Assembly (NCBI GenBank): GCA_013204045.1
Contig: JABMOQ010000074.1
Span: 1 to 36,228 of the forward strand
Direction: 5' to 3'
Length of the DNA stretch: 36,228 bases
From: Rhodospirillaceae bacterium
GTDB taxonomy: Bacteria; Pseudomonadota; Alphaproteobacteria; Rhodospirillales; JABHCV01
Below, piece after piece: positions 1 to 1,570 of this stretch (positions within the stretch are counted from its first letter, which is position 1; each line of letters begins with the position of its first letter). Below the pieces are notes generated by a model, which was not told the origin of the DNA, ran no database searches, and saw only the letters and a program-made list of their open reading frames with translations. The position numbers and the translations under genes were made by a program.

Positions 1-394
1 CGTTTTCAACGTTTTTAACGATAGCCCTCGGGGCCTGGCTTTCAACATTCGTTGATTGTTCGTCGCTATCGGGCGCGGCGGCTTCCTGCTGCGGCTGATT
101 GGTATTCTCATTACGGTCGTCTTCGTGTTTCCTGGGTTGGGAATCCGCACCGCTACTATCGGCGTTCAAAATACGCTGGTAGTGCTCGGCGTGCTGGAAA
201 TAACCTTCCGCGGCGATCCTGTCGCCCGCTGATGTGGCATCGCGGGCCAAGGTGAGATACTTATCGAGGACCTGTTGAGCGGAGCCGCGAACCTTGTTAT
301 CGCCGCCACTGCTTTCAAAATTGCGGCCCTTCGACGATTGCGGACGCTTGCCGCCGCGGCTGCGCCCACGTCTTGGATTGGTTACATGTTTCAT
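1..394 (-). CDS. DUF4167 domain protein, N-terminal part (cut by window edge)
   Basis: The frame opens with ATG at 394 and runs off the left edge without a stop, giving about 131 residues. The N-terminus (MKHVTNPRRGRSRGGKRPQS) is strongly basic and Arg/Gly-rich. It is followed by a helical stretch containing VRGSAQQVLDKYLTLARDA and then AAEGYFQHAEHYQRILNA, which is the recognisable DUF4167 core. After about residue 85 it becomes low-complexity, rich in Glu, Asp, Gln and Asn. DUF4167 proteins are alphaproteobacterial and of unknown function; the basic head suggests nucleic-acid contact, but that is inference. In relatives the gene commonly lies between prmC and clpB, and prmC is indeed upstream here. 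The C-terminus cannot be judged. Confidence 0.85.
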   Translation of the reverse strand, partial: MKHVTNPRRGRSRGGKRPQSSKGRNFESSGGDNKVRGSAQQVLDKYLTLARDATSAGDRIAAEGYFQHAEHYQRILNADSSGADSQPRKHEDDRNENTNQPQQEAAAPDSDEQSTNVESQAPRAIVKNVEN

Positions 395-521
395 GATACC
401 TGTATTTTCATAGTGGACTTCAGCCAGTTGGCATCGGCCTCAAAGTTGACGTTTCTGTTGTCGGATATTTTTCCCAGTACGGTCAAAGCTCCTTGGCTTT
501 AACTTTCCGCACGGCCATTGC

Positions 522-645
522 AAAAAACTTCTGGCTACTGCGTTGTGGGAACTAGGCCTTGGCACCGATGCTTGAAACACCCGCCGGAGCTTGTGGCCCG
601 GATAGCTCTTCCCAAAGCCACCCTCAGACAAGAAACTAGTCGGGA
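522..645 (-). ncRNA. Candidate small structured RNA (family unassigned)
   Basis: This lies in the 291-base gap between prmC and DUF4167. Read on the minus strand, a CATAAT -10-like hexamer at 657-652 would start transcription near 645; no good -35 is visible. The sequence can fold into a long rod: 620-616 with 536-532, 615-609 with 551-544 (one bulged C), 599-595 with 558-554, 585-582 with 564-561, and 581-577 with 571-567 around a UUCAA loop. Five bases after the rod comes a run of six U (527-522), as at an intrinsic terminator. The product would be about 124 nt. I see no SRP tetraloop motif and no tmRNA signature. A 6S-like RNA or a structured DUF4167 leader are alternatives. Pairings were found by eye only. 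Confidence 0.35.
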
Positions 646-685
646 TGGGCTATTATGCCAACTGTTTTTTTTATAAAAATTGGGT

Positions 686-1570
686 TTACAAACGCCCGAA
701 TATGCACCTTTCGATTCCCGCCAGATCCTTGCGTTTTGCGATGTTTCTAAAGCCCCATTCGCCCATCATTCCGCAAACATCATCTGCTTGGCCTTGCCCA
801 ATCTCAAAAAAAACGCCGCCATCGGGCCTAAGAATTTCCGGCAATTGGGGAATAATCGTCCGGTAGGCAGAAAGCCCGTCGGGGCCAGCAAACAGGGCCT
901 TTGGGGGATCGAACTCGGCGACCTCGGGGGCCAGGCTTTTGGCATCGGCGTCAGCAATGTAAGGCGGGTTACAGATGATGACGTCGAAACGGCGACCCTC
1001 GATTGACCCAGCCAGGCCTTGTTCCCAATCTGCGGTGCGGAATGTCGCCTGTTTCGACAGACCCAGATTTTCGGCATTGCCTTTCGCCGTGACCACGGCA
1101 CCTTGGCTGATATCGACTCCCAGACCGTGGCAATCGGGTCGCTCGTGCAGCAAGGCCAGCAGCAGGCATCCGGAGCCGGTTCCCATATCGAGGATTTCGA
1201 GCCGTACATTCCGTTCGGGGTACTCATCAAGCACCACCTCAACCAGGGTTTCTGAATCAGGTCGCGGGATCAGGGTATCTTCGGTGATGGTAAAGTCCAG
1301 TGACCAGAATTCGCGGTGTCCCGTAATTTGGGCCAGGGGCTGGCGCTTTGCCCGGCGGGTGACGATAGCATCAATTTTTTGGCAATCGTTCACATCAAGT
1401 TGGCGTTCCGGATGAGAAAACACCTGTTCCGGGGTACACCCAAGGACATAGGCAACCAGCAGGCGGGCATCAAGGCGGGCCTCATCGATGCCGGCCGCTT
1501 GCAGTCGCTGAATGGCTGCCGCCAAGGCATCGCCGACAGTTGAGGTTGCCAAATCGAAAGGCACTTTCAC
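686..1570 (-). CDS. prmC: Peptide chain release factor N5-glutamine methyltransferase
   Basis: PrmC (HemK) uses S-adenosylmethionine to methylate the glutamine of the GGQ motif in release factors 1 and 2, which improves peptide release. The 294-residue protein has the usual length. An N-terminal helical substrate-binding domain (about 1-95) precedes a Rossmann methyltransferase domain with the SAM motif [14 protein letters not shown] and the diagnostic catalytic NPPY in [13 protein letters not shown]. The start is a GTG at 1570 whose last bases form the prfA stop (GTGA, a 4-base overlap), so enzyme and substrate are translationally coupled. It is the last gene of the run that begins at lysC. 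No intrinsic terminator is clear after it. Confidence 0.97.

Follow-up and report, generated by a model that had tools for sequence, protein, structure and literature searches.

The gap between prmC and a DUF4167 gene raises the question of what kind of RNA begins there. The initial annotation had proposed an independent minus-strand RNA about 124 nt long, with ends near 645 and 522. We arrive at a different reading, in which the gap probably encodes the regulatory leader of the DUF4167 message rather than a small RNA in its own right. The window, i.e., the whole stretch of DNA that was analyzed, is a complete contig of 36,228 bases. Both flanking genes lie on the minus strand, with prmC upstream (686–1570; TIGR03534, E = 3.1e-83, and additionally PrmC_N) and the DUF4167 gene downstream (2–394; PF13763, E = 1.8e-27; ATG at 394). 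The DUF4167 reading frame exits the contig end, and its C-terminus is not visible. The order prfA–prmC–gap–DUF4167 is maintained in five other genomes of the family, and comparison of the six family gaps revealed a common block directly after prmC, (A/T)GTTGGNA...CCNGACTAGTTTC. With up to two mismatches, one copy of this block per genome was found in 6/6 family genomes, and none in the other 193 of the 199 order genomes sampled. Of 144 class genomes sampled, 129 contained DUF4167 itself; 128 of these had one match each, and genome G296 had three, on different contigs.

Three sets of DUF4167 loci were used for comparison. The 90 order loci comprise the 30 best DUF4167 matches and 60 loci chosen by hand among the matches listed from 186 genomes; families f12, f16, f24, and f29 are absent from this set. 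For the class beyond the order, 40 loci were likewise chosen by hand among the matches listed, and the 80 loci from named genomes are the best 80 of 578, at least six of them being, by length, the same contigs as order loci. Rfam searches at gathering thresholds gave zero matches in the window, in 20 order loci, and in 20 of the 80 named loci, in agreement with the initial annotation, which had not recognized the family. At E ≤ 1, no match was obtained in the five family loci, and at E ≤ 10, the sole match in window positions 380–780 was a miRNA family at 729–780 on the plus strand, within prmC. The absence of tmRNA hallmarks was also borne out, as ARAGORN found no such gene and Rfam no match in the window. 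A coding reading of the 63-aa minus-strand ORF at 631–440 was rejected, since the ORF has no Pfam family and since L045 and L047, two close relatives, differ by a 1-nt indel within it.

The proposed 124-nt RNA had been delimited by a −10-like box, a rod of helices, and a U run. The box, CATAAT, is present on the minus strand (657–652), but as a −10 element it is not conserved in the five family relatives and it overlaps the −35 hexamer described below; GTTGG just 5′ of it and GACTAGTTTC 3′ of it are invariant in 6/6 family genomes. The rod of five helices can be drawn, and its UUCAA is found on the minus strand, starting at 576, but the rod is not the preferred fold. Segment 522–645 folded no better than dinucleotide shuffles on the minus strand (z = +1.33; 182/200 shuffles at least as good), and the plus strand gave z = +0.42 (125/200 as good). 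Forcing the two outer rod helices cost 2.7 kcal/mol within 522–645 (−30.5 versus −33.2) and about 10 kcal/mol with the downstream sequence included (−48.4 versus −58.3), the rod tested being our own reconstruction, as no pairs had been listed. The run of six U residues exists at 527–522; as a terminator, however, it was rejected, since it is internal to the RNA, occurs in only one of six family leaders (L041 has a U5 elsewhere), and is followed on its 3′ side by columns invariant in the family. With rod, CATAAT, and U run left unsupported and conservation continuing past the U run, we assign other ends to the minus-strand RNA, from about 626 to at least 471 and probably on as far as the DUF4167 ATG at 394.

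The 5′ end would follow from a promoter identified by comparison. The upstream regions of the 90 order loci (27 families) yielded a consensus of an A-tract, TTGG(A/C)A, exactly 17 nt, and TAGNTT, which corresponds to 661–633 in the window. On the minus strand, the A-tract (662–679) starts 6 nt past the prmC stop codon and is A-rich in many of the 90 order loci (not counted); we take it to be UP-element-like. The −35 hexamer TTGGCA (656–661) includes letters of the invariant GTTGG, and the −10 hexamer TAGTTT (633–638) follows after 17 nt, supported by the invariance of GACTAGTTTC and by the spacer statistics. For the latter, the spacer was left free between 10 and 24, and the best site per locus was counted if it scored ≥ 9. 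Of the 90 order loci, 81 had such a site, and in 79 its spacer was 17; this spacer peak is the more telling part, since the consensus was derived from the same loci. Shuffled sequences reached this score in 8/90 loci (one at spacer 17), and reverse complements in 3/90. Beyond the order, 20 of 40 class loci passed (16 at spacer 17; shuffled 4/40, none at 17), as did 40 of 80 named loci (34 at spacer 17; shuffled 7/80, none at 17). A single-genome scan with the E. coli consensus found nothing in the window gap, so that the promoter rests on comparison. Exact matches to TTGGMA-N17-TANNTT are hardly enriched in the window genome (seven sites versus four for the reversed control), and the motif is therefore not a genome-wide signature. 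Judged by sequence, the gap promoter is of the housekeeping type and strongly conserved, and it lies upstream of the structure on the DUF4167 strand. Given the usual promoter spacing, transcription would be expected to start near 626–624. In two loci of family f17 (L043 and L053), about 200–330 nt separate prmC from the promoter; this stretch carries palindrome-like elements common to both loci (AAAAGTCC...GTACTTTT and AAAAGTACACC...GGGACTTTTT), which may stem from the insertion of a dispersed repeat.

For the window species, the minimum free energy (MFE) fold from 626 to 466 consists of three helices, P1, P2, and P3, with arms P4 and P5 inside P3, and mildly beats shuffled sequences (z = −1.26; 26/200 as good). 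All elements are on the minus strand. The P1 hairpin (600–623; GGGUGGCUUU / AGAGCUAUCC) starts 9 nt downstream of the −10, a few nucleotides past the expected start. P2 (554–599) is composed of a stem (GGGCC 599–595 / GGCCU 558–554) and an inner hairpin, with an interior that is enlarged in this species. P3 joins UUCCCA (546–551) to UGGGAA (471–476), the latter 76 nt from the ATG. Within it, P4 (508–542) pairs CGCA 542–539 with UGCG 511–508 and GCCA 535–532 with UGGC 517–514, thereby enclosing the U run 527–522 and part of the conserved GGCCGTGCGG (516–507); its GNGCG columns are invariant in the six family genomes. The P5 hairpin (482–503; GUUAAAGC / GCUUUGAC) derives from the MFE fold only. 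A GGCCGTGCGG-like motif (at least 11 of 15 letters) occurs in 15 of 90 leaders versus 1.3 expected, the motif having been picked by eye from the same leaders. Moreover, UGGGAA at the P1 loop (614–609) could pair with UUCCCA of P3 (551–546) in the window species, which could be chance or a species-specific switch. The leaders of the window family f1 (L039–L042, L045, and L047) extend 234–238 nt past the −10 and are longer than many others; the additional nucleotides, located 3′ of P3 and before the start codon, include partly shared stretches, GACAACA and GAGATACA, in several of the six.

Folding of individual leaders gave P1 right after the expected start and P2 around its inner hairpin in many species, and in 43 leaders folded further, P3 was found in many, pairing a stretch after P2 with one before the DUF4167 start. 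Leaders as a group were more stable than their own shuffles (mean z = −1.21 ± 0.11 for 90 leaders). The 90 prmC coding stretches used as a control were also better than shuffles, but less so (−0.58 ± 0.15), and 50 class or named leaders with a promoter gave −1.13 ± 0.15. MAFFT combined with RNAalifold returned poor or no structure for mixed or divergent sets (energy 0.0 for the f27 set). From 25 leaders aligned by hand, 16 entered alignment A3 and 15 alignment A4, the misaligned L069 being dropped. A model of P1 and P2 built from these 15 seeds (R1) gave 34 matches over the 90 loci at E ≤ 1. Apart from its 15 seeds, it recovered another 15 leaders, on the expected strand and in the expected position; the remaining 4 matches were off-target. 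The best non-seed matches were L081 (6.6e-6), L107 (2.2e-5), L046 (3.6e-5), and L062 (0.001); the window matched weakly at 547–628 (15.8 bits, E = 0.047 among loci). At the same threshold, 60 of the 90 order leaders were not found, including the family member L041. In the 40 class loci, R1 found no leader and gave two weak matches elsewhere, so that the features shared outside the order are limited to promoter and position. In two loci of another family of the class (L131 and L143), a different long stem stands at the beginning of the RNA downstream of the promoter (GAGATTG...CAATCTC versus GGAGATTG...CAATCTCC), a hint of lineage-specific folds behind the same promoter.

Covariation was assessed in an alignment of 27 rows (A6), cut at E = 0.14 so that only on-target matches were included; between E = 0.14 and 1, three matches were on-target and four off-target. 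Changes on both sides occurred in 13 of the 15 P1/P2 pairs, and 82.8% of cells paired compared to 73.8% after shuffling, with 0/500 shuffles reaching any of five measures, although A6 was fitted to its own structure and its counts lean towards it. P1 was the strongest part (all six modelled pairs with both-side changes, 97.5% of cells paired) and the outer P2 stem the weak part (61.7% of cells paired, two of four pairs with both-side changes). In the MAFFT seed alignment A4, both-side changes were seen in 9 of 15 pairs; shuffles reached two of the five measures at 1/500 and 6/500, and the other three never.

We complemented these counts with an alignment-free test over the 90 loci, in which the pairing of a leader's own two arms was compared to that of arms from different genomes in 1000 permutations. 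Strong signals were obtained for P1 (z = −9.1), the inner P2 hairpin (−4.8), and P3 (−5.0), each with 0/1000 permutations as good, versus z between −0.9 and +0.4 for four control window pairs; the test is not fitted to a structure, but its windows were chosen after viewing the folds. For P3, the window was placed 15–65 nt before the start codon, and leaders of the six family members were trimmed to 185 nt to bring P3 into this range. A leader's own pairing fell within the best tenth in 36 (P1), 17 (inner P2), and 17 (P3) of the 90 loci, with 9 expected; an earlier version of the test gave 37 (P1), 15 (outer P2), and 21 (P3) of 90. No such signal emerged from the window pair designed for P4/P5 (z = −0.5), which leaves the window MFE fold and the GGCCGTGCGG-like motif as the support for these two arms. 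It should be kept in mind that promoter consensus, P3 windows, and GGCCGTGCGG motif were all picked after inspecting the same loci. The comparison of relatives' gaps, which the initial annotation had suggested and in which missing conservation or covariation was to speak against its RNA, thus revealed an RNA that is conserved and covarying. A structured minus-strand RNA does begin in the prmC–DUF4167 gap, though via helices other than those drawn.

Does this RNA act on its own? A trans-acting sRNA that ends or is processed after P3, with DUF4167 merely downstream or reached by read-through, would be in accordance with the conserved promoter, the compact 5′ fold, and leaders long enough to release such an RNA. 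However, a terminator scan of window positions 380–760 found none, and none is conserved in place: 8 of the 90 leaders have a terminator-like site, in varying positions, versus 1.35 expected from mononucleotide shuffles. With a start near 626 and no conserved terminator, an RNA bounded at 645 and 522 is not upheld; given the excess over shuffles, attenuation or early transcript ends may occur in some species. Moreover, P3 pairs with a stretch shortly before the DUF4167 start.

The linkage of promoter and gene would also argue against an independent sRNA. With the PrmC of the window as query, prmC was found upstream in 29/30, 38/40, and 72/80 loci of the order, class, and named sets, respectively, the 30 order loci being those outside L069–L128. 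Where prmC is not upstream, the promoter mostly seems to stay with DUF4167, as judged by motif in a few cases (L188 had too little upstream DNA). Locus L057 has TTGGAA-N17-TAAGGT 222 nt before DUF4167, behind two ORFs, one small and the other presumably aminotransferase-like. Loci L170 and L098, which by length are the same contig, keep TTGGAA-N17-TAAGTT in divergent orientation to a neighboring ORF that we take to be rpsF-like, and L158 keeps TTGGAA-N17-TACCGT downstream of a presumably kinase-like ORF. Six Bartonella loci (L177, L184, L198, L199, L223, and L233) lack a prmC match within 1 kb upstream of DUF4167 and have kept the A-tract and TTGGCA-N17-TAGRTT (score 9). The exception is L154, a class locus without prmC and without a good promoter site (score 8.0).

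Whole-genome searches point in the same direction. A refined model, R2, was applied to 40 whole genomes and matched with E ≤ 0.004 in 15 of them, at one place each and always at the DUF4167 locus; as all 15 had contributed to R2, the only news is that there is no second place at that level. In the window genome, R2 gave a single match (547–628, E = 0.13; 130 of 1090 candidates scored), and no second copy was detected at its sensitivity. The family genome G004 was not recognized by R2 at its leader. Genome G028 had two weak R2 matches, C1:49150-49206 and C156:4201-4261 (E = 0.014 and 0.028), and its DUF4167 place was not listed there. Altogether, we regard an independent trans-acting sRNA as unlikely.

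A riboswitch-like element or attenuator, which senses a metabolite or the state of translation, would be the same leader with only the sensed factor differing. It would fit the long multi-helix leader of a single gene adjoining prmC at the frequencies given above, and the short U runs that follow P2 in some species. A fixed ligand pocket would suggest more invariant columns than four, but these four are all that the 5′ domain shows among the 15 seeds (the 3′ domain lies outside the order-wide alignment), and we assign this alternative a low probability. Still less probable is that the promoter alone is functional and the leader fold incidental: conservation is highest in the promoter, and the 5′-domain model fails outside the order, but neither the covariation, unmatched by 500 shuffles, nor the alignment-free pairing of three separate helices would be expected from an incidental fold. 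Alphaproteobacterial 6S RNA, which the initial annotation had named for checking and which its rod-like drawing would suit, can practically be dismissed, since RF00013 has no match in the window, the rod is not the favored fold, and a match above the Rfam cut-off (53.5 bits) sits on another contig of the same genome (C38:12840-12994), which refutes the identity for this genome at that threshold.

We therefore return to the cis-acting leader. That the gap holds a conserved promoter plus a structured leader is very probable, and we consider it likely that the two together form a cis-acting structured leader of the DUF4167 mRNA with its own promoter, control in cis being part of this interpretation. 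From the promoter position, the lack of a conserved terminator, and the linkage to DUF4167, we infer a whole leader of 395–626 on the minus strand. The gap promoter (A-tract, TTGGCA, 17 nt, TAGTTT) just past prmC would start the DUF4167 transcription unit, and a single transcript would run from the promoter through the leader into DUF4167. Its first ~150 nt would fold into P1 at the extreme 5′ end, the composite P2, and the domain closed by P3, whose 3′ strand would be placed shortly before the DUF4167 start codon. The leader would then control DUF4167 expression in cis, with some factor binding the P1–P3 fold and thereby altering the stability or the translation of the mRNA.

For this factor, the leading candidate would be the DUF4167 protein itself, as in ribosomal-protein leaders. 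DUF4167 has an Arg/Gly-rich N-terminus and a conserved core, which is predicted to form a helical hairpin (residues 31–78, with helices 31–56 and 59–78); confidence is low elsewhere (mean pLDDT 64), and a PDB profile search with DUF4167 returned no chain at E ≤ 1. Autogenous control is the most likely mode when set against a metabolite or translation sensor; taken by itself, it is possible but tentative. The same caution applies to the broader proposal of a new cis-regulatory family that extends across the order, with promoter and position kept in many class genomes, and through which the small Arg/Gly-rich DUF4167 might control its own synthesis.

In the literature, we found no description of a DUF4167 leader in the text available (supplements were not covered, and one 'DUF' mention in PMC2704228 may have been missed). 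The sources, as far as their text was available, contained no functional study of DUF4167, only single mentions such as a table row. In the accessible text of structured-RNA papers, including PMC7247131, a word search gave no prmC, and in part of them no hemK either. The conserved promoter and the covarying leader suggest that the dose of DUF4167 is controlled, and the leader is a concrete RNA with which to ask whether DUF4167 binds RNA. It would also add a new family of the Rfam type to a lineage that has been studied intensively. If the autogenous family is real, DUF4167 would be an RNA-binding regulator with its natural RNA target already in hand.

Three known systems are comparable. 6S RNA (RF00013) is likewise structured, of similar length, and encoded in the same genome, but it differs in locus, and its model has no match at the leader. 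The alphaproteobacterial sRNAs of Rfam are also intergenic and structured and have their own promoter; unlike them, the leader is linked to one downstream gene and has no Rfam match. The autogenous ribosomal-protein leaders (e.g., those of S15, PMC4137082, and of L17 and others, PMC7247131) share with it a structured 5′ leader with covarying helices, placed before a gene whose small basic product may bind RNA. Unlike in these cases, nothing makes DUF4167 ribosomal, no Rfam leader matches, and binding is only putative here. Structured leaders as such are a known kind, to which the DUF4167 leader would add a new family.
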